Below are positions 1,339 to 47,349 of a stretch of 64,000 nt of DNA, piece after piece. How positions within the stretch are numbered: position 1 is the first letter of the stretch; each line of letters opens with the position of its first letter. Origin of the DNA: Bdellovibrionales bacterium GWA1_52_35 (GTDB lineage: Bacteria > Bdellovibrionota > UBA1018); the NCBI GenBank assembly GCA_001769805.1, contig MEPO01000003.1, forward strand, positions 1 to 64,000, given 5' to 3'. The notes under the pieces are model-generated. The model saw only the letters and a program-made list of their open reading frames with translations. It had not been told where the DNA came from and did not search any database. The translations under genes and the position numbers were made by a program.

Positions 1339-3132
1339 GTGCCCAATCTTCGCTATCACCAAGTCACGTCTTTTTTGTTACCCTATGTAAAACTCCGGCC
1401 CTTCGCCGCGCTTCGGGACAAATTCCGAGAGGGATATACTTTCAAAGATTTCCGCGCGGATCTCATGGCGGGAACCGTGGTCGCAATGGTCGCCATTCCG
1501 CTGGGCATGGCACTGGCCATCGCCAGCGGGGTTCCGCCTCAGCATGGTCTTTACACCGTCATCATAGCAGGAGCCATCGTGGCAATATTGGGGGGCTCCA
1601 GACTTCAGGTGTCAGGACCTACCGCCGCTTTTGTCGTAATTTTAGCCCCGATTGTCTACAAGTTCGGACTCGGTGGCTTACTCATGGCTGGGTTGATGGC
1701 CGGGATCATGCTCGTTCTCATGGGCGTGGCGCGAATGGGGCGGCTCATCCAATTCATCCCTTTCCCGGTGACTACCGGATTCACCTCTGGAATTGCGCTG
1801 GTCATCGCTTCGCTGCAGCTGAAGGATTTCTTCGGACTCCAGGTGCCGGAAATGCCCGAGCGCTATCTCGAAAAAATTTGGGCACTCTTTCAGGCCCGTT
1901 CATCCGTATCTTTGACTGAGCTCGGCATCGGCGCCGCCACTCTGGCTGCCCTGGTGCTCTGGCCCCGAATAAACAAAAAAATCCCGGCTCCCCTTGTTGC
2001 CCTGACAGGCGTATCCATCCTGGTGGCCCTCATCCGGTGGCTTTTTCCGGAAATGGAAGTTGCAACCATCGGTAGCCGCTTCAGCTATGAAATCAGTGGC
2101 GTCGTCGGCCATGGAATTCCGGCGAGTCCTCCCCATTTTGCTTTGCCCTGGAGCTTTGCTGGTGCGGGCGGCAAGCCCTTTGTTCTCAATCTTGTGACCA
2201 TTGAAGCACTCGTGCCGCCTGCCTTTGCCATTGCGATGCTCGGCGCTATCGAGTCCCTGCTTTCGGCAGTCGTTGCCGATGGCATGGCGAAAACCAAGCA
2301 CGATCCCGATGCCGAACTCATTGCCCTCGGAGTGGGCAATATTTTATGTCCTTTCTTCGGCGGGATTGCTGCCACAGGGGCCATTGCCCGCACGGCTACA
2401 AATATCCGCTTTGGTGCGCGTTCGCCCTTGTCCGCGGTGATTCATGCCCTGATTACTCTGGTTGTTGTTCTTGTATTTTCCCATTGGGTTTCTTATCTGC
2501 CCATGGCCGCACTCGCCGCACTTCTCATGTTGATCGCCTACAACATGTCTGAAATGAAACCTTTCGTTCATATCGTCAAGGTCGCTCCGAAGAGCGACGT
2601 CCTGGTGCTCCTTTTCTGTTTTTCGCTGACGGTGCTTTTTGACATGGTCGTCGGTGTGACCGTCGGCGTGGGACTCGCCTCGCTCTTGTTCATGAGACGT
2701 ATGGCCACGATCACTTCCGCGCAAATTCATCTCAAAGGGCCGCATCCCCGGCTCAGGGAACCGCTTCCCAAAGATCTTCTCGTTTATGAAATCGCGGGCC
2801 CGCTTTTCTTTGGCGCGGCGGAACACGCAATGGAAGCCCTGAGCAATATTTCAAGCGAGATCACCGCCGTGATTTTCTACATGGAAAATGTGCCCGTTAT
2901 CGACGTCACGGGTCTTGTGGCCTTTGAAAGCGCGATTGCCAAAATTCAAGCCCATGGTCAACGCATCTGTCTTGTCGCCCTTAAAAAACAGCCCGAAGAT
3001 GTTCTCAGGAAATCAGGCATGTTGAAGGACAAGCGCGTCCAGCTTTATTCAAGCCTCCATGAGGCGGTTCTGGCCTGCTCACCAGCAAAAGAAGCGGGCG
3101 CGGCAGGTCTCGTCCCGGAAGTTATTCTTTGA
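1339..3132 (+). CDS. dauA: SulP-family anion transporter, DauA-like
   Basis: 597-residue inner-membrane transporter with a C-terminal cytoplasmic STAS domain (from about residue 480). The SulP signature region near residues 60-100 (IPLGMALAIASGV, GLYT, SGPTAAFVVI) and the later MLGAIESLL, FFGGIA and ARTATNIRFGA stretches closely resemble E. coli DauA/YchM, an aerobic C4-dicarboxylate (succinate) transporter. SulP relatives also move sulfate or bicarbonate, so substrate is not certain. Start is GTG at 1339 after a loose AAAGAG. Its last 11 bases overlap the convergent cysE gene, whose cysteine-synthesis role makes a sulfate substrate worth considering. Confidence 0.9.
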   Translation: MPNLRYHQVTSFLLPYVKLRPFAALRDKFREGYTFKDFRADLMAGTVVAMVAIPLGMALAIASGVPPQHGLYTVIIAGAIVAILGGSRLQVSGPTAAFVVILAPIVYKFGLGGLLMAGLMAGIMLVLMGVARMGRLIQFIPFPVTTGFTSGIALVIASLQLKDFFGLQVPEMPERYLEKIWALFQARSSVSLTELGIGAATLAALVLWPRINKKIPAPLVALTGVSILVALIRWLFPEMEVATIGSRFSYEISGVVGHGIPASPPHFALPWSFAGAGGKPFVLNLVTIEALVPPAFAIAMLGAIESLLSAVVADGMAKTKHDPDAELIALGVGNILCPFFGGIAATGAIARTATNIRFGARSPLSAVIHALITLVVVLVFSHWVSYLPMAALAALLMLIAYNMSEMKPFVHIVKVAPKSDVLVLLFCFSLTVLFDMVVGVTVGVGLASLLFMRRMATITSAQIHLKGPHPRLREPLPKDLLVYEIAGPLFFGAAEHAMEALSNISSEITAVIFYMENVPVIDVTGLVAFESAIAKIQAHGQRICLVALKKQPEDVLRKSGMLKDKRVQLYSSLHEAVLACSPAKEAGAAGLVPEVIL

Positions 3133-3667
3133 TCTTCTGATGGCTGAGTTCTTCACCCGGAGCGACCCCTTGGCGAACGCGCTTCGCGGGAATTCCTACA
3201 ACCGTGGAGTTCGGCGGAACGTCTTCAATTACAACCGAGTTGGCGCCAATGCGACTGCCAGAACCGATCGTGATATTTCCCAGAACTTTCGCGCCCGCAC
3301 CAACCACCACATGGTCTTCCAGCGTCGGATGACGTTTGGCATGTTTCAGCTCCGTACCGCCTAAAGTGACACCCTGGTAAATGATAACGTTATTACCGAT
3401 AATGGCAGTTTCTCCGATCACCGTTCCCATTCCGTGGTCAATGATCAGGCCCCGACCAATGGTCGCTCCCGGATGAATATCAATTCCGGTCAAAAAACGG
3501 CTCAGCTCCGAAACCAGGCGCGGGAAGAACGGAATTCCTGCCCGGCTCAGGGCATGGGCGATCTTGTGAAAAAATACCGCTTTCACCCCGGGGTAAAGCA
3601 GGGCCACTTCGAGGTAGCCTTTGGCGGCCGGATCATATTTTCGGTACTGCTTGATGGTGTAAAACAT
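3122..3667 (-). CDS. cysE: Serine O-acetyltransferase, short form
   Basis: Transfers acetyl from acetyl-CoA to L-serine, giving O-acetylserine, the carbon acceptor for sulfide in cysteine synthesis. 181 residues: a short helical N-terminus, then the left-handed beta-helix of hexapeptide repeats with the hallmark GIDIHPGATIGRGLIIDHG, GETA, YQGVTLGG and RHP motifs. E. coli CysE is about 273 residues, so this is the shortened form lacking most of the N-terminal helical domain, as in Bacillus and many others. Last gene of a minus-strand run; starts 14 bases after the NamZ-like gene. Confidence 0.95.
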   Translation of the reverse strand: MFYTIKQYRKYDPAAKGYLEVALLYPGVKAVFFHKIAHALSRAGIPFFPRLVSELSRFLTGIDIHPGATIGRGLIIDHGMGTVIGETAIIGNNVIIYQGVTLGGTELKHAKRHPTLEDHVVVGAGAKVLGNITIGSGSRIGANSVVIEDVPPNSTVVGIPAKRVRQGVAPGEELSHQKIKE

Positions 3668-24063: not shown

Positions 24064-24346
24064 AGATCATTGAAATAACATGAAATTAAAAAATTTGGTT
24101 CATTTCTGATCCATTCTTTCTCGCTCGGTCCGAGTTTGAGCCCCAAGGTACGGGATTCCGGATTTCCCTCAGGTCGAAAAGCCGCGGTTCAGAAGTTTTC
24201 GAAGCGGTTTAAGCAGTCGAAATAAAAAGTCTTTCTTCCTGACGTAGCTGTATTCCTAGCCGGAATTCCGATTGGCTCGATTCATATTTCTGTTGGCTCG
24301 CTCATTGCTCTAACGCCGCTCATAGCCAACAAAAAAAGGAGTGAGT
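24064..24346. other. Intergenic region, divergent promoters expected
   Basis: About 280 bases between the divergent thrS and lipoprotein genes. No small ORF with a ribosome binding site, no T-box-like or other riboswitch fold and no clean promoter pair was identified. Confidence 0.3.
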
Positions 24347-25750
24347 ATGAATGCTTTAAAAAATAGGTCCCTGGTTTTCGTCGTCGTTAATTTCGGAATC
24401 ACGTTTTTACTTGCCGGAGCGCTGGCAGGTTGTGCCAAACCCAATCGGGGTTCAGCCGGTGGTAAGCACGGGGCAGAGAATTTACCGCTTGCCGCCACCT
24501 TGAATCCCGAGGCGCTTAAAAATCCAGCCGAGTATCTCAAGCTTCGGCTGATTCCAGTGGCAAAGGCAAACGCAGCTAATCAGGATGCTGCGTATCCGGA
24601 TCGTTCGGTCCAGCCGACCGAACCCCGTCCTTCAGAAGAGGTGATTGCCAAAGCTGAGCATGTCGCCTTCAAGAACACCCTCCAGCTCACGGGTGAACCA
24701 TTATTCCTGACGTTTTCTGAAGATGGTTTTGGTCTGCCGATCCGGGAAGTGGATCTCACTCATCAACGCCGCAATGGGCTGAATCGCCCAGAAGGCCAAA
24801 GTCGCCGGGTTGGAGCTCTCTACGACGAACCCACTCGGCGCTGGTATGTGCCGATGAGCGACGTTTTAGGTGAGCTTTCAGAAGTGGGTGCGAGTGAATT
24901 GCAGGAATTGAGAATCGATCTGTATTTTCCTGACAATTCGACTTGCTCGGTTTACCTGAGCTTCCGTGCCACCGGACCGATTCAGGCGATTCAAAGCCAG
25001 TTTCGTCCAAGGGCGAATGCAGCGCTCACTTCTTCAAGTCCAGCCGCCTATGTGCAGAGCCTGGGTAACTCAGTGCTGCTGGGTCATGATGAATTGACCA
25101 ATCCGACAAGGCGCCGGATAAAGGTTTGGGTTCGTGCGCTTTCTGGTTCCCGTTTGGCTGCAAGGACAAGTCTGGCTTACTCTTATTTTATTGAAAGAGC
25201 CGAGGCGCCACCTACGGGCCCCCATTTCAACCACCATGCCTCCGACGGAGTTTTTGAGCCCAACCGGCTCATCGCTCGTCAAAATGGGGCAGTCAAGACT
25301 CTGGGATTTATTGAAAATGATTGGGTTTCGATTGAGCTGGAGCCCTATTCGACAGTTCAGCTGGAATGGCGGGGGGGAGCTACGAATTCATCTCTCTGCT
25401 CGGCTCCTCCCGCAACATTCCGGACGCTGCGCTGGACTACTTACACTCAGCCAAACTGCCCTCCTCGAATCGATGGTTGCCAGGATGCTATCCCACACCC
25501 GCATTCCCAAAACGTCACTGAGGGCTGGAATGTCATCGGCGCCTCTTTGAACGGGACCTTTGGACGGGAGATTCGCGTTGCTGATCCGGACTTGGATGGT
25601 TCACTCGCAACTGCAGCGCAAATTCCGGTTCGGGCTGCTTCTCTGGTCCTTTCCATTGTCAATTCTTCGGCCCAGATCACGGAAAATATTGGGACAACCC
25701 TTCCGGGAAGTCCTTCTTCGGGTGTTTGCCAGGGGCTTGGCTGGTTTTGA
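24347..25750 (+). CDS. Lipoprotein of unknown function
   Basis: 467 residues. ATG 24347 is preceded by AAAGGAG five bases earlier, which decides against the in-frame GTG at 24341. Signal peptide with lipobox ALAGC, then a low-complexity linker (about 30-90) and a beta-rich body, with several cysteines in the last third (SLCS, NCPP, GCQD, GVCQG). No catalytic motif or family is recognised. It is likely anchored in the outer membrane. The gene stands alone, 60 bases before rimI. Confidence 0.7.
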   Translation: MNALKNRSLVFVVVNFGITFLLAGALAGCAKPNRGSAGGKHGAENLPLAATLNPEALKNPAEYLKLRLIPVAKANAANQDAAYPDRSVQPTEPRPSEEVIAKAEHVAFKNTLQLTGEPLFLTFSEDGFGLPIREVDLTHQRRNGLNRPEGQSRRVGALYDEPTRRWYVPMSDVLGELSEVGASELQELRIDLYFPDNSTCSVYLSFRATGPIQAIQSQFRPRANAALTSSSPAAYVQSLGNSVLLGHDELTNPTRRRIKVWVRALSGSRLAARTSLAYSYFIERAEAPPTGPHFNHHASDGVFEPNRLIARQNGAVKTLGFIENDWVSIELEPYSTVQLEWRGGATNSSLCSAPPATFRTLRWTTYTQPNCPPRIDGCQDAIPHPHSQNVTEGWNVIGASLNGTFGREIRVADPDLDGSLATAAQIPVRAASLVLSIVNSSAQITENIGTTLPGSPSSGVCQGLGWF

Positions 25751-41039: not shown

Positions 41040-42365
41040 TCACGAGTTCATGAGGGCTTCGCGCGTATAGATCTTTCCTTCTTCCACTCCGGGTTGGTCA
41101 AACGGATTCACATTCATGAGTGTTCCGGTCATTGCGGTGAGGAAACTGAAGGTGAAGAACAGTGCTCCCAATGAGCGTTCATCCAATTTGTCGACTCGCA
41201 GAGTCAGATTGGGTCTGCCGCCCTTTGTCAAAACCAGGGAGGTTGCCCGATACTCAGTCAGGAGCAGCTCTTGGAGGGTATGGCCTTCAAGCAGTTTGAA
41301 AGAAGCATAGCTTGTCGGGCCAGGGAGTTTCGGGATTTTGACTTCGTCCTCTACCTGATCGACGGTCAGGAACATTGTAATTTTGTCGTCCGGCCCGTCC
41401 CGCAGTAGCTGAAGAATGCTGTGCTGGTCGGTCGCCCCCAGGGCTGCAAGCGGGGTGAAGCCCTTGCCATCTTTGCCGAGACTCTCTCCCCACATCTGGA
41501 CAAACCAGTCCCCGATGAGCCGCAGGCGCGTCGAGTAGGGCATACAGACATGGATGGAGCGTTGATTCGCCTGCCGGATCATTTCCTGGCCAATGATGAA
41601 GATGGGATTTTTTTCGAGAGGGGTCTTCTCGATGTAGTCGCGGACCTGCTTGGCGCCCAGCATGAATTCGCTGAGTGAAAGTCCGGCGAGAGCCGCAGGG
41701 AAAAGTCCAACGGGCGAAAAAACACTGAACCGGCCGCCGATCGGTGCACTGATATGAAGAGTCGCCAGCCCTTCCTGGGTGGCAAACGCTTTCATATCCC
41801 CTTTGGCCGGATCGGTGATGGCGATGAGATGCGATTTCAAGCGGTTTTTGCCGAGCCATTCCATGGCAATGAGGAGCTGGGCAACGGTTTCGAAAGTGGT
41901 TCCGGATTTGGTCACTGCGCAAACGAGGGTGTGGTCCGGGCTGAGGCGACCTAGAGTGGCCTTCCAATCGATGGGATCCGGATTATCACAGATGTGGAAG
42001 CGCATTTTGGTTTTGCAGTGCTCTTGGAGGGAAGAGAGCAGACTCATGGGGCCGAGCGCGCTCCCGCCGATTCCCAGGAATAGGCAGTCGGTGAATTGCT
42101 TGGAGTTGAGGATCTGCGCAGCCAGAGCTTCGGTTGCTTCAATTTGCGAAAGTTCAGGATCAATCGGGGCATTGTAAAAACCGATTTCGTTCCGCATAAA
42201 CCGGCCGCGCAGCTTCTCCCAGCCTTCGGTCCATTCGTGCAGATAAGTTTGGGAATCCGGGGCAATGGCCTTGGCTCCGGTCGAGGTGGTGGTGGGAACA
42301 CGGATGAAATTCGACCAGTCGAGGGTAATCGGTGAACTTCCCAAGCGAGTTGCGGTGACGGTCAT
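41040..42365 (-). CDS. pgi: Glucose-6-phosphate isomerase
   Basis: 441 residues from ATG 42365, six bases after AGGGAG; the earlier in-frame start adds unrelated residues. It interconverts glucose-6-phosphate and fructose-6-phosphate. LGIGGSALGP, AVTKSGTTFETVAQ (SIS domains), IGGRFSVFSPVGLFPAA (catalytic region), GATDQHSILQLLRDGP and the C-terminal FDQPGVEEGKI are all in order. Compact form, shorter than the 549-residue E. coli enzyme and close to the Bacillus/archaeal-length proteins. Confidence 0.96.
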   Translation of the reverse strand: MTVTATRLGSSPITLDWSNFIRVPTTTSTGAKAIAPDSQTYLHEWTEGWEKLRGRFMRNEIGFYNAPIDPELSQIEATEALAAQILNSKQFTDCLFLGIGGSALGPMSLLSSLQEHCKTKMRFHICDNPDPIDWKATLGRLSPDHTLVCAVTKSGTTFETVAQLLIAMEWLGKNRLKSHLIAITDPAKGDMKAFATQEGLATLHISAPIGGRFSVFSPVGLFPAALAGLSLSEFMLGAKQVRDYIEKTPLEKNPIFIIGQEMIRQANQRSIHVCMPYSTRLRLIGDWFVQMWGESLGKDGKGFTPLAALGATDQHSILQLLRDGPDDKITMFLTVDQVEDEVKIPKLPGPTSYASFKLLEGHTLQELLLTEYRATSLVLTKGGRPNLTLRVDKLDERSLGALFFTFSFLTAMTGTLMNVNPFDQPGVEEGKIYTREALMNS

Positions 42366-42491
42366 GAAGGACTCCCTGAAGTAAAGTATTAACTGAAATC
42401 TAGCGCCGATTCTAATTCGGCCCGGCCTGGGTTGCCATCTAAAATATAGATTATTTGAAATTGGGAGGGGGCGTGTCGAAAACGACACAAA

Positions 42492-42560: not shown

Positions 42561-45500
42561 ATGTTTTTACGTTTCAAAATTTCTTCGATTATGGCGTTCG
42601 CGGCTGTGTTTGCTTTTGCAAACGCAATGCAGGGCTGTTCCCTGGCTCAGCCGGAAAAGAAATTGCTGCGGATCGAAATTCCGGCCCGGGCGGACTTCGC
42701 TGCAAAGGCGTCTGCCAGCTATTCTTTAAAATATGCGGATCCATTGGCGTTCCTGCTGCCCCGAGGTACGGGGGCTTTGATGGCGCCTGGAAACATCTCT
42801 CTTTTCAATTGTTTTGCGTTGAATGTGACGGGTCCGGATATTCCAGTGGATAACCGGATGCAGTGTAAAGACGCTGTGGATGTGGTCGGAATCGCCGGCG
42901 GTACGGTGCCTGCCAGTGGTGGTATTGTTGAAGTGATGGTCCCGAGCGGATCGAATCGAAAACTCGAGCTGATGGGCTTTGATGGAACGGGCACGGATTG
43001 TCTGCCAATGGGCCAGGTCTTTGATGCAGTGGCGGCTGAACTGAATGGCGGCCCTTCGGCAGATCCTCTGACCGAGCCTTTGGGTAAACCGTGGTTGCTG
43101 GCCGAGACGGTGGTCGATATCGTGGGCGATACGACGATAACAATGGACGTCTCTCAAAATACTGCTTCTGCAAGAGAGTTGTTTCAAAGTTGCGGAGTTC
43201 AGGAGCCGAGTCCTTCACCCAGCCCGTCACCGAGTGCTTCGCCAAGTCCTTCGCCGACGCCAACTCCCACTCCATTGAATGTAGTCATTTCCCTCTCAGG
43301 ATCTCAGCCGTCGAATACCGCCATTTTGCCGGTTGAATTTACGGTTTCCTTCAGTCAGGTGATCAATACGACTACTTTCGACGAAAGCGACATTACTCAA
43401 AGTGGCACGGCAACTGGAGTCGCCTGGAGTTTGTCCATTATTGATCAGATGACGTATACCCTCAGGGCTACAGCGGTCGGAACTCAAGGGACGATCATAC
43501 CGACTATTCCAGCGAGTGTGGTTTGGGATACTTCGTCGAATCCCAATGAAGCGTCTACCGGTTCTGCTACTGTTGCTTTTGATAATGTCGGACCGGCTGC
43601 TCCGGGTTTTGTGAGTGCCACCCCGGCTTCTCCTTCTTCCAATCTCAATCCACTGATCAATGGAACTTCATCTTCAGATACCGAATACTTGAGATTTTAC
43701 AGTGAAGCGGCTTGTGCAAACGAAATTGGGTCAGGGAGTAAGGCGCTCTTTGAAAGTACGGGTATTACAATCACGCTACAGCCAAATCAAGCGACCAGCC
43801 TCTATGCAGTTGCTTTTGATTCTCTCAGTAATGCCTCGGCTTGCACTTCGATGTCTGCTTACACCCATGACAATACTGCTCCGACGGTCACAATAACCAC
43901 TAGCGCAAGCTCGCCTACGGCCCTTTCTCCGATTCCAGTTACGGTCACATTCAGTGAAGTAGTGACTGGCTTTGGTTCCGGTGGTGTCACGGTTACCAAT
44001 GGCAGTGTAGGGAGTTTTCTGGGGTCGGGAGCAACTTATACTTTTGATTTAATACCGGCAGCCAATGGCTTTGTCACAGTCGATCTTGCTCCTGGTGAGG
44101 CAATGGATGCTGCAGGTAATGCAAATTCCGCAGCTGCGCAATTTTCAATTCAATATACAGTCGACAACATTGCTCCGAGTTTTCCGGTCCTGACAGCGCC
44201 TGTCGCCGATCAGGTGGTGCCGCCGGGAGCACTCAAGGTAAAGGGCGGGTGTGAAACTGGAGCGACTGTCACTCTATCCGGGGTGGGGACCACTGTTTAT
44301 GCGACCTGTATTGACAGTGTTTTTGAAGCAACAGTCGATGTGACCCCGGGAAACGGCGTGCGGTCACTCTTAGTCCATCAAACAGATCCCGCCGGCAATG
44401 ATAGTTCGTCAACATCGGTCTCTTTTAACTGCCTGACTTCGTTAGTGACTATTCCGCAAGGGCTGCCGGGTTACAGTGCCTTACCTGATAACACGGTGAC
44501 TGCGATATACAGAGACACTACAACAGTCCCTCCTACTCTGTATGTCGGAACACCGGGCGGTTTGGCGATTTCTACAGATGATGGTGTAAGTTTCTCAACG
44601 CGCACTACGGCTGATGGACTTGGGAACAACGGAGTTCTCGGCGTGGTAGCGCTCGGAAATCAAGTGTTCGTAGCCACTTCCAATGGCCTGGCGGTTTCGA
44701 ATGACAATGGTGTTACATTTACCAAGCGCATGGTGGGAGAATACGTGAGAGATGTCGCGCTTCAAGGTTCGACCCTCTATGTCGGAACTCAGTATAGCGG
44801 TTTGAAAACGACTACCGATGGCGGAATCACTTTCACTCAAAAGACTTGGAGCGGGTCGACATCGACAATTAATACGGTTCGCGTTTTTGGAACGACGGTG
44901 CTCGTCGGTACCTCCGGTGGGTTAGGGATTTCTGTAGATAATGGTGCCAGTTTTGTGCAAAGGACCTTCTCCGGAAGCAATAACGTAGTGAGTGTGTATA
45001 CGAGCGGTGTGTATTATTATGCAGCTACAAGCGATGGATTAGCAGTATCGACGAATAGTGGTGCTAGCTTTTCAAAGACGGCTCTGTCTGGTTTGCTTTC
45101 AACTAATATTACCAGCGTTGCTGGGTATGGCTCCTATCTTTATGTGGGGACCGATTATGGCATTGGGTATACAACATTAGGTAATACGGTGTTCACGAAT
45201 AAGAATATGTCAAACGGACTAGCTAATGATTTCGTAAGGAAGGTAATTACCTCTGACTCACTGGTTATCGCCGGCACTGATAAAGGGCTTTCGATTTCAA
45301 CGGACCCGATACTTTCAAGTTTTACAAACTATTTCGCAGCTCATGCCTTGGGATCAAGTGATGTGTTCGCCGTTGCTGGAGATGCTACGAACCTCTTTGT
45401 AGCTACCTCAAAAGGACTGGTAAGTAGTGCGACCGGTGGGCTGAATTTTGTTAATAAAATAGATAGTGTTGATATCCGGGATGTATTCGCTTCAGCCTCT

Positions 45501-46181
45501 GAGGTGTACGTTTCTGATTACGGGAAAGTTTGGATTGCTCCCATCTCAACCGGTGCTTTTGCAGAATTTAACTTTTCAACTCATTCTTTGGACGATCAAG
45601 CAATCAGCGTATCGGCTTCAGGAAGCGATCTTTATGTGGCCACCAGTAGTGATCTGATTTATTCAAACGATGATGGAGCCACTGTCACGTATCTGATGAC
45701 TTCTGCTAGCTTTTTCAGTGCTTTTAACATTAGAAGCATAGAGTCAGGAGTATTTGGTTTGTTCGTTTCGACAAGTGGGGGGCTATTTGTATCCAACGAT
45801 TCCGGGTCGAACTGGAGTAATCGTACGACGGCTGCCGGATTAGGGTCCAATAGCGTGAACCGCGTTATTGTGCGGGACGCGATTATGTATGCTGCAACAG
45901 ACGGAGGATTGTCAATTTCTGAAAACGGAGGTGTTAGTTTCACGAATAGGTCGAGTGCGAATGGCCTCAATGCACCCGTTCGCGACGTTGTGGTTTTGAA
46001 TAAAACAATTTTTGTGGCCACTGCTGGCGGCGGAATCGGGATCTCAACCGACGGAGGCGAAAACTTCGTTATGAGAACAGTCGCTGACGGACTCGGTAGC
46101 AACTATGTCAGGCGACTCCATGTGATCGGCTCATCCGTTTACGCCACGACCGCGAACGGACTTTCGAAGTTCAGTCCTTGA
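42561..46181 (+). CDS. Giant surface lipoprotein, Ig-like domains plus beta-propeller repeats
   Basis: 1206 residues. N-terminal signal with candidate lipid cysteine C26 (MQGC, not a perfect lipobox). A unique domain (30-210), a Ser-Pro/Thr-Pro linker (215-238), then three Ig-like segments (about 238-345, 345-445 and 445-545) and a fourth beta domain to 640. From about 655 to the end there are a dozen or more repeats of about 40-45 residues of the form YVGTxxGLxxSxDxGxSF...DGLGSNxVR. These resemble BNR/two-component-propeller blades. Likely a surface adhesin or ligand-binding protein. The repeat part is AT-richer than its neighbours. No enzyme motif seen. Confidence 0.8.
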   Translation: MFLRFKISSIMAFAAVFAFANAMQGCSLAQPEKKLLRIEIPARADFAAKASASYSLKYADPLAFLLPRGTGALMAPGNISLFNCFALNVTGPDIPVDNRMQCKDAVDVVGIAGGTVPASGGIVEVMVPSGSNRKLELMGFDGTGTDCLPMGQVFDAVAAELNGGPSADPLTEPLGKPWLLAETVVDIVGDTTITMDVSQNTASARELFQSCGVQEPSPSPSPSPSASPSPSPTPTPTPLNVVISLSGSQPSNTAILPVEFTVSFSQVINTTTFDESDITQSGTATGVAWSLSIIDQMTYTLRATAVGTQGTIIPTIPASVVWDTSSNPNEASTGSATVAFDNVGPAAPGFVSATPASPSSNLNPLINGTSSSDTEYLRFYSEAACANEIGSGSKALFESTGITITLQPNQATSLYAVAFDSLSNASACTSMSAYTHDNTAPTVTITTSASSPTALSPIPVTVTFSEVVTGFGSGGVTVTNGSVGSFLGSGATYTFDLIPAANGFVTVDLAPGEAMDAAGNANSAAAQFSIQYTVDNIAPSFPVLTAPVADQVVPPGALKVKGGCETGATVTLSGVGTTVYATCIDSVFEATVDVTPGNGVRSLLVHQTDPAGNDSSSTSVSFNCLTSLVTIPQGLPGYSALPDNTVTAIYRDTTTVPPTLYVGTPGGLAISTDDGVSFSTRTTADGLGNNGVLGVVALGNQVFVATSNGLAVSNDNGVTFTKRMVGEYVRDVALQGSTLYVGTQYSGLKTTTDGGITFTQKTWSGSTSTINTVRVFGTTVLVGTSGGLGISVDNGASFVQRTFSGSNNVVSVYTSGVYYYAATSDGLAVSTNSGASFSKTALSGLLSTNITSVAGYGSYLYVGTDYGIGYTTLGNTVFTNKNMSNGLANDFVRKVITSDSLVIAGTDKGLSISTDPILSSFTNYFAAHALGSSDVFAVAGDATNLFVATSKGLVSSATGGLNFVNKIDSVDIRDVFASASEVYVSDYGKVWIAPISTGAFAEFNFSTHSLDDQAISVSASGSDLYVATSSDLIYSNDDGATVTYLMTSASFFSAFNIRSIESGVFGLFVSTSGGLFVSNDSGSNWSNRTTAAGLGSNSVNRVIVRDAIMYAATDGGLSISENGGVSFTNRSSANGLNAPVRDVVVLNKTIFVATAGGGIGISTDGGENFVMRTVADGLGSNYVRRLHVIGSSVYATTANGLSKFSP

Positions 46182-46191
46182 GGTGAAGTGC

Positions 46192-47331
46192 TCACCCCTT
46201 CTGCGTCAAACTCCGCGCAATCACCACGCGCTGGATCTGATTCGTGCCCTCGACAATCTGCAGGACCTTCGCTTCGCGCATGTATCTCTCGACCGGGAAT
46301 TCCTTCGTATATCCTGAGCCGCCGAGCACCTGGACTGCATCCGTCGTCACTTTCATTGCCATGTCCGTCGCAAAAAGTTTCGCCATTGCTGCTTCCTTCG
46401 AGTGGGGCAGGCCATTGTCCTTCAGCCACGCAGCGCGATTCACCAGCAGGCGCGCGGCATCCAGTTGAACCGCCATATCGGCAAGGAGGAACGATACCCC
46501 CTGAAATTCCCCAATCGGCTTCCCAAACTGCTCACGCTCACGCGAATGAGCGACTGCGGACTCCAAAGCCCCGCGAGCCACACCCAAAGCCGTCGCCGCG
46601 ATTGTAATCCGGCCACTGTCCAGTGCCGTCATCGCGACTTTAAATCCGTCGCCTTCATTACCCACCAGATTCGCGGCAGGAATCCGGCAATTATTAAAAA
46701 TCAGTTCCATCGTATGCGAAATACTGCAGCCCATCTTCTTCTCGCGTTTGCCACAACTGAAGCCCGGAGTGCCTTTCTCAACAATGAATGCCGACACGCC
46801 TTTAGTGCCTGGCCCACCCGTGCGCGCCATCACCATCACCGTGCTCGCCGTGTCTCCTTGCGTGATCCAGAGCTTCGTTCCGTTTAAAATGTATTCATTG
46901 CCTTCCTTCTTCGCGACCGTCCGAAGACTGCCGGCATCCGAACCCGAAGACGCTTCCGAAAGCGCGAAAGCCCCGATCGCCTGGCCTGCTGCGAGCGGAG
47001 GAATGTACTTGGCCTTTTGTTCGGCATTTCCAAAGAGATTCAGAATCACCTGCGGCAATCCCGTCACCGCAACGCTGATCGCATAACTCGTATTCACCGC
47101 CGCGAGTTCCTCGATCGCGCAGATGTACTCCTGGTAACCCATTCCTGCGCCGCCGAAATCTTCGGGAACCGGAATTCCCGTCAGCCCCAGCTCCCCTAGC
47201 TTCGCAATCAGCTCCGGACGGAAGTGCTCGTTATGCTCGTCTTCCTCGACCAGCGGTAGAATTTCTTTACGGGCGAATTTGCGCGTCAGATCGCGCAGCT
47301 CTGTTTGAATTTCGGTTTCCTGAAAATCCAT
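46192..47331 (-). CDS. Acyl-CoA dehydrogenase, short/medium-chain type
   Basis: 379 residues from ATG 47331 with GAGG five bases before. FAD-dependent enzyme that forms trans-2-enoyl-CoA. FALSEASSGSDAGSL, LNGTKLWITQGDTAS (FAD/acyl binding), REREQFGKPIGEFQG and YTKEFPVERYMREAK are standard; the catalytic base is the Glu in VEGTNQIQR, the position used by short- and medium-chain members. Directly follows the isovaleryl-type gene on the same strand, 18 bases later. Convergent with the large lipoprotein gene (10 bases). Confidence 0.94.
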   Translation of the reverse strand: MDFQETEIQTELRDLTRKFARKEILPLVEEDEHNEHFRPELIAKLGELGLTGIPVPEDFGGAGMGYQEYICAIEELAAVNTSYAISVAVTGLPQVILNLFGNAEQKAKYIPPLAAGQAIGAFALSEASSGSDAGSLRTVAKKEGNEYILNGTKLWITQGDTASTVMVMARTGGPGTKGVSAFIVEKGTPGFSCGKREKKMGCSISHTMELIFNNCRIPAANLVGNEGDGFKVAMTALDSGRITIAATALGVARGALESAVAHSREREQFGKPIGEFQGVSFLLADMAVQLDAARLLVNRAAWLKDNGLPHSKEAAMAKLFATDMAMKVTTDAVQVLGGSGYTKEFPVERYMREAKVLQIVEGTNQIQRVVIARSLTQKG

Positions 47332-47349
47332 AAACACCTCGCTTCAAAA

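Follow-up and report, generated by a model that had tools for sequence, protein, structure and literature searches.

A conserved lipoprotein N-domain that carries differing heads in Bdellovibrionota, and a member with a predicted twin-propeller head

The stretch of DNA analyzed here, the window, comprises 64,000 nucleotides of Bdellovibrionales bacterium GWA1_52_35 (GenBank assembly GCA_001769805.1, contig MEPO01000003.1), a member of a phylum whose inclusion of predatory bacteria is supported. It contains the gene of a predicted lipoprotein of 1,206 residues, in which an N-terminal domain (N-domain), a Pro-rich linker and an immunoglobulin-like (Ig-like) stalk are followed by an array of 14 propeller blades. 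The N-domain is shared with many proteins of the phylum, and the heads behind it differ. We propose, at a probability of about 0.62, that the protein belongs to a phylum-wide family of outer membrane lipoproteins for display, composed of a vertically inherited base, a stalk and exchangeable binding heads, the head being in this case a twin propeller by prediction. The unusual part of the protein is the uncharacterized N-domain with its varied heads and not the array.

Results

An uncharacterized N-domain is shared across the phylum

The protein carries a signal peptide, a lipobox and the lipobox cysteine, and lipidation is predicted. The lipobox reads NAMQG-C26-S-L, a pattern that we take to fit the PROSITE PS51257 lipoprotein rule. 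Cys26 is invariant across 63 aligned homologues, and Ser occupies position +2 in 47 of the 66 homologues in which a lipobox was found. The lipid anchor of the original prediction, made from the letters of the window, was supported, as was the Pro-rich linker, located at residues 216 to 238.

The N-domain sits directly behind the lipobox. Searches for its relatives covered the phylum Bdellovibrionota; the genomes are mostly drafts. Residues 1 to 215, used as a single-sequence query, found relatives in 27 of 58 genomes, and a profile of 24 members found them in 44 of 55 in the order, where single genomes hold up to nine copies, and in 127 of 369 genomes of the phylum. The window sequence scores E 5.9e-49 against this profile, of which it is itself part, but the single-sequence search found the same family. 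Nearly all the frames matched in the order and the phylum are without internal stops. Conserved positions comprise the lipobox Cys, C84, C102, C147, C211, G130 and R133, with C84, C147, C211 and R133 kept in at least 90% of the 63 aligned proteins.

No family match to the N-domain was obtained among Pfam, NCBIfam and PDB sequences; a Pfam GreAB-C match (E 0.014), seen in one member of 24, was taken as chance. No description of the family was found in the open-access literature searched. AlphaFold2 predicted a mostly beta fold (predicted local distance difference test [pLDDT] score, 80.4; predicted template modeling [pTM] score, 0.76), and no PDB fold matched this model at E ≤ 1e-3. The first fold matches were FimA-type pilins, insignificant at E 0.08 to 0.1 and TM scores of approximately 0.2 to 0.3 and treated as a lead only. 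Type V fimbrillins are also lipoprotein precursors with beta-sandwich N-domains. The N-domain has no significant similarity to their FimA/Mfa-like structures (PDB 6kmf and 3liu), and we do not claim membership. A deeply divergent N-domain branch was also observed in genus g30 (L123:1030-6460 and L124), with neighboring pairs in G050 and G054 and tails that gave no family match here.

The base is retained while the heads differ

Among 63 full-length proteins, the heads behind the N-domain were RCC1 (12), LamG (6), Kelch (4), NHL (4), HYDIN-Ig (4), TIG (4), DUF5122 (2) and others. The N-domain tree tracks taxonomic families, requiring 17 changes against 34.3 in shuffles, none of 200 being as low. 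On the same tree the 12 RCC1 heads, called by sequence pattern, need 11 changes. The clearest single case lies in G028 (contig C2), where the neighbors L113:5946-9200 and L113:1078-5847 (- strand) stand head to tail with N-domains that are 68% identical; the former carries a Kelch propeller (E 2e-34) and the latter an RCC1 propeller (E 1e-200). Neighboring duplicates of this kind, with the same base and different propellers, constitute a natural domain-swapping experiment. Within genus g30, N-domains with 36 to 55% identity are followed by no identified module, a small Ig domain, a propeller-repeat (SBBP) tail or a Kelch tail.

The 14-blade array, for its part, also occurs without the N-domain. 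In G038 it stands directly behind the lipobox, and in G004 (contig C148) a lipoprotein of 1,389 residues (L039:3973-8139, + strand) has one Ig-like unit and two successive 14-blade arrays, without an N-domain of the window family. As judged from these sequence comparisons, a conserved N-domain base bears heads that are exchanged.

The family includes a protein of Bdellovibrio bacteriovorus HD100 (L143:1372-4065, + strand), 898 residues long, in which all four cysteines of the N-domain are present and the head is RCC1. Its gene lies at about 2,565,871 to 2,568,564 of the chromosome. Bdellovibrio proteins annotated as RTX toxins have been noted to be RCC1 proteins (PMC5941755), and our guess is that these are members of the N-domain family.

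The array has 14 blades and is predicted to form two propellers

Residue self-matches within the array peak at a lag of 42, which is its period. A blade profile delimited 13 whole units of 37 to 44 residues and one unit split between the array ends; the 13 whole units, together with a closing strand before the first (residues ~641 to 650) and a terminal half-unit (1193 to 1206), make 14 blades, the blades starting at residue 660 (position 44538). The original prediction of a repeat array was borne out, with 14 blades in place of its "about a dozen." YVGTxxGL-like motifs occur 11 times in the array, versus 0.25 in shuffles, and the Asp-box consensus [ST]x[DN]xGx[TS][WFY] occurs 6 times in its strict form and 8 times with N allowed at the seventh position (0.05 to 0.06 in shuffles). 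The Asp-box is retained in blades 1 to 5 and partly in blades 11 to 13, and is degenerate in blades 6 to 10. Since the blades combine the Asp-box with a Reg_prop-like GLxSNxV...YVGTxxGL pattern, they are Asp-box/Reg_prop hybrids, a type noted before as putative (PMC2716378). The blades are of a known type. The combination of parts had been put forward as unfamiliar; the array is read as a pair of propellers of known hybrid type, and what is unusual is the N-domain at residues 26 to 215, which the original prediction had missed.

In an AlphaFold2 model of the stalk and array, the array was modeled with pLDDT mostly between 75 and 92. Its best PDB fold matches were twin 7-bladed structures, namely, BT4663, BT3049, BT4673, GH74 enzymes, PorZ (5m11) and Utp21, and the propeller expected by the original prediction was thus obtained. 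No PDB relatives of the full protein were found by phmmer, and an array profile was needed to find matches; a profile built from four arrays matched 4a2l at E 1.7e-20. The Pfam Reg_prop match of the window protein reached only E 0.08.

At E ≤ 1e-15, related arrays were present in 31 of the 369 genomes of the phylum; within the order, 6 genomes had them. Blades were counted in 27 open reading frames (ORFs) from the phylum array search and earlier searches. Exactly 7 blades were counted in nine arrays, some in ORFs of ~340 residues with little else, and exactly 14 in six, including that of the window. The 27 blades of L039 are read as two 14-blade arrays, and the counts of L178 (13) and L180 (6) as 14 and 7, in each case with the final half-unit undetected. 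L175 counted 13 and L184 counted 6, L166 is truncated where its contig stops, and counts are uncertain in the weakly matching ORFs L040, L172, L177, L179 and L183 and in L035, which is of another family. The stand-alone 7-blade relatives, the counts at 7 and 14, the tandem 7+7 fold matches and the profile match to 4a2l support a model in which the array forms two 7-bladed propellers. A single 14-bladed ring was disfavored by the stand-alone 7-blade proteins and the tandem fold matches.

Stand-alone 7-blade proteins occur in sister families; those of the Asp-box/Reg_prop type in family f9 (~340 to 364 residues) were found at L171:1231-2256 and 2295-3317 (+ strand; an adjacent pair), L170, L174 and L181, and are minimal versions of the window head. 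In the unrelated protein L035:3625-6663, from a metagenome-assembled genome, a Reg_prop array with at least 12 detected units continues into what reads as a phosphatase-type (SpoIIE/PP2C-like) output domain.

The stalk contains a module used elsewhere in the genome

The stalk spans approximately residues 239 to 632, and its Ig-like character, previously proposed, was upheld by a Big_12 match at residues 437 to 529 and by matches of residues 341 to 443 to tandem units of another protein. Big_12 is the only Ig-like unit with a confident Pfam match; the domains at 239 to 340 and 541 to 632 are putative and were assigned on weaker grounds. Residues 341 to 443 match 12 consecutive units (E 7e-20 to 3e-31) of a 2,431-residue lipoprotein that the same genome encodes on a different contig, so the stalk is built from a module used elsewhere in the genome. 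The ORF concerned, L037:5277-12569 (+ strand; G000, contig C26, 45 to 53 kb), is lipoprotein-like, and its tandem Ig-like units, at least 12 in number, are homologues of this part of the window protein. Its C-terminal region (GLCESGEACIYSPNFGVYQGE) looks similar to the end of L132:809-3655, an N-domain protein.

Base composition differs along the gene

The GC content at third codon positions (GC3) of the gene, 0.462, is the lowest of the 54 ORFs of the window (mean, 0.593; standard deviation, 0.048). By part, the array has 0.44 and the stalk 0.36 to 0.52, and the N-domain, at 0.55, is close to normal. The AT-rich repeat part had been taken to suggest transfer or rapid evolution; the low GC is real, but it is not confined to the array, the stalk being low as well. 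Likewise, the array gene of G038 has a GC3 of 0.37, versus ~0.60 to 0.73 in neighboring ORFs of at least 400 residues. These values fit a resident base on which the head modules were imported or change fast, without proving transfer, and they are compatible with module transfer and with relaxed codon use, having no power to separate the two. Transfer from one donor was rejected for want of a close array relative: the compared arrays of the 14-blade type are 32 to 39% identical to that of the window, so no donor can be named. A further lipoprotein-like ORF of the window (24326-25747, + strand; LAGCAKPN) also has a GC3 that is low for the window (0.504).

Anatomy and setting of the gene

The features of the gene are listed in Table 1. 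It is the sole + strand gene between two - strand neighbors, which from their sequences resemble a glucose-6-phosphate isomerase (41040-42488) and an acyl-CoA dehydrogenase (46192-47337). A promoter and terminator scan gave nothing above shuffles, and no plasmid-borne relatives were found in the search.

Table 1. Features of the lipoprotein gene, in window coordinates
Feature	Coordinates	Strand	Basis
Complete ORF, 1206-aa predicted lipoprotein	42561..46181	+	ATG start, intact reading frame
Signal peptide and lipobox (MFLRFKISSIMAFAAVFAFANAMQG-C26), Ser at +2	42561..42638	+	Sequence read directly
N-domain, residues 26-215, uncharacterized, beta-rich, conserved C84, C102, C147, C211	42636..43205	+	Distribution, conservation, AlphaFold2 model
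Pro/Ser/Thr-rich linker, residues 216-238	43206..43274	+	Sequence read directly
Ig-like domain 1, residues 239-340 (putative)	43275..43580	+	Aligns with the pre-array domain of the 1389-aa G004 protein
Ig-like domain 2, residues 341-441	43581..43883	+	Similar to 12 tandem units of the 2431-aa protein L037
Ig-like domain 3, Pfam Big_12, residues 437-529	43869..44147	+	Pfam E 2.2e-14
Probable Ig-like domain 4, residues 541-632	44181..44456	+	Weak: OmpL47-type match E 0.036; bacterial-Ig-like by inspection
14-blade array, residues 633-1206, predicted as two 7-bladed propellers	44457..46178	+	Blade profile, AlphaFold2, fold matches

Discussion

In the proposed mechanism, the protein would be exported, lipidated at Cys26 and sorted to the outer membrane. 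The N-domain, probably disulfide bonded, would be the base and might serve as a platform for retention or export or as a docking point for a shared partner, with the Pro-rich linker and the Ig-like domains keeping the head away from the membrane. The twin 7-bladed head would then bind a ligand, most likely a glycan or another surface polymer of a neighboring cell, prey or particle. Glycan binding is suggested solely by the nearest solved relatives, a heparin/heparan-sulfate sensor and xyloglucanases. The protein may, as the original prediction had it, take part in prey or surface recognition. Passing the base on vertically while swapping heads by recombination could give each lineage its own binding repertoire.

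Several observations weigh against this proposal. Propellers and Ig domains occur in periplasmic scaffolds too, and sidedness cannot be read from sequence, the phylum having no general rule for it; we infer the surface exposure and the ligand of the window protein. The fold of the stalk is not resolved in the AlphaFold2 model (pLDDT mostly 22 to 56), and near-identical repeats may collapse in draft assemblies, as possibly in L175 with its 13 blades. In the N-domain tree, many forks are weak and many branches long, which makes the number of head changes rough. Furthermore, in the Bdellovibrio members L142 and L143, the lipid Cys is followed by Asp, unlike the usual Ser. Asp at this position is an inner-membrane retention signal in Escherichia coli, and sorting may therefore differ in these members.

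The difficulty of reading sidedness also counts for a rival, a periplasm-facing outer membrane scaffold. Such a lipoprotein would stay in the inner leaflet, and its propellers would provide a platform for assembly or quality control (BamB-like or Ycf48-like) or would belong to a secretion machine, as PorZ does. Known lipoprotein propellers include some that function in assembly, and PorZ (5m11) is among the Foldseek matches. A housekeeping platform, however, should keep its head, whereas the heads vary among close relatives and tandem duplicates and the array reaches only those six genomes of the order; the Pro-rich linker and several Ig domains, moreover, resemble an extended stalk, and we regard a scaffold as unlikely. 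The same variability of heads could also stem from neutral shuffling of domains among envelope lipoproteins under low constraint, without a common function. Weak constraint would be consistent with the very divergent heads, the low GC3 and the lack of a partner gene, but nearly all matched frames lack internal stops, the heads are mostly known binding folds and the blade number is held at 7 or 14, which indicates selection for a folded ring. We accordingly give neutral shuffling little credence.

Two further readings draw on the fold matches. A glycoside hydrolase (GH74-, sialidase- or F510_1955-like), either secreted or anchored, that degrades environmental or prey polysaccharide appears improbable. 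The F510_1955 glycosylhydrolase model does match at E 9e-23, and GH74 structures are among the best fold and profile matches. The score of 80.8 bits, however, lies far under the cutoff of 175, the match consists of five stretches, as expected from shared Asp-box blades alone, and no Pfam glycosidase domain passes; a sialidase or glycosidase identity was rejected on this curated cutoff. The sequence has diverged too far for catalytic residues to be transferred to it safely. In GH74 "type 3" tandem propellers (PMC2716378), a continuous run of 14 Asp-box blades forms two propellers, as predicted for the window array; the latter differs in standing on a lipoprotein base with a glycosidase assignment below the cutoff. 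The closest solved structures by fold and profile are BT4663, BT3049 and BT4673, which, with the Reg_prop-like GLxSNxV motif in the blades, raises the idea of a glycan sensor, in which the twin propeller would detect carbohydrate, as does the periplasmic portion of hybrid two-component systems in Bacteroides, and would signal via a partner. The sensor domain of BT4663 (PDB 4a2l and 4a2m), itself a twin propeller, is the closest of all (fold E 1e-22). BT4663, however, is part of a membrane sensor kinase, whereas the window protein stops right after its last blade, 14 residues into the last half-blade, with no Y_Y_Y domain, transmembrane helix or kinase in the Pfam scan. Its neighbors appear to be metabolic genes and are on the opposite strand. 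A sensor is, in our judgment, very improbable.

The display family that we favor recalls two systems of the same phylum. The mosaic adhesive trimer (MAT) fibers of B. bacteriovorus are trimeric beta-prism fibers described as phage-like (PMC10769870). What they have in common with the window family is the logic of a conserved end and an exchanged end and not membership, the window family being a lipid-anchored chain with an unrelated N-domain, an Ig stalk, and propeller or lectin-like heads. When the window protein was scanned with Pfam, no beta-prism/beta-helix, S74 or phage-fiber domains appeared, nor do they figure in the 25 commonest families of the 63 homologues. The MIDAS-family adhesin Bd0875, inferred to be on the predator surface (PMC11003981), has a lipobox like the window protein and a VWA/MIDAS head; it is without a propeller, and no N-domain of the window family has been reported for it. 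The window protein itself gave no Pfam match to a VWA domain with a MIDAS motif.

Tentatively, and with the odds rather against it, the family could be a second chimeric receptor system in Bdellovibrionota, apart from the MAT fibers, in which an N-terminal base with freely exchanged propeller or lectin-like heads would set the attachment targets of each lineage, and which would be present in HD100 as the RCC1-headed L143. To the question of how predators recognize very different prey, the MAT fibers have recently supplied one answer in Bdellovibrio. The family described here was found through one shared domain that is unnamed in the databases searched, and if it is located at the surface, it would add a further set of candidates for recognition, spread across the phylum and represented in HD100, a genetically tractable strain.

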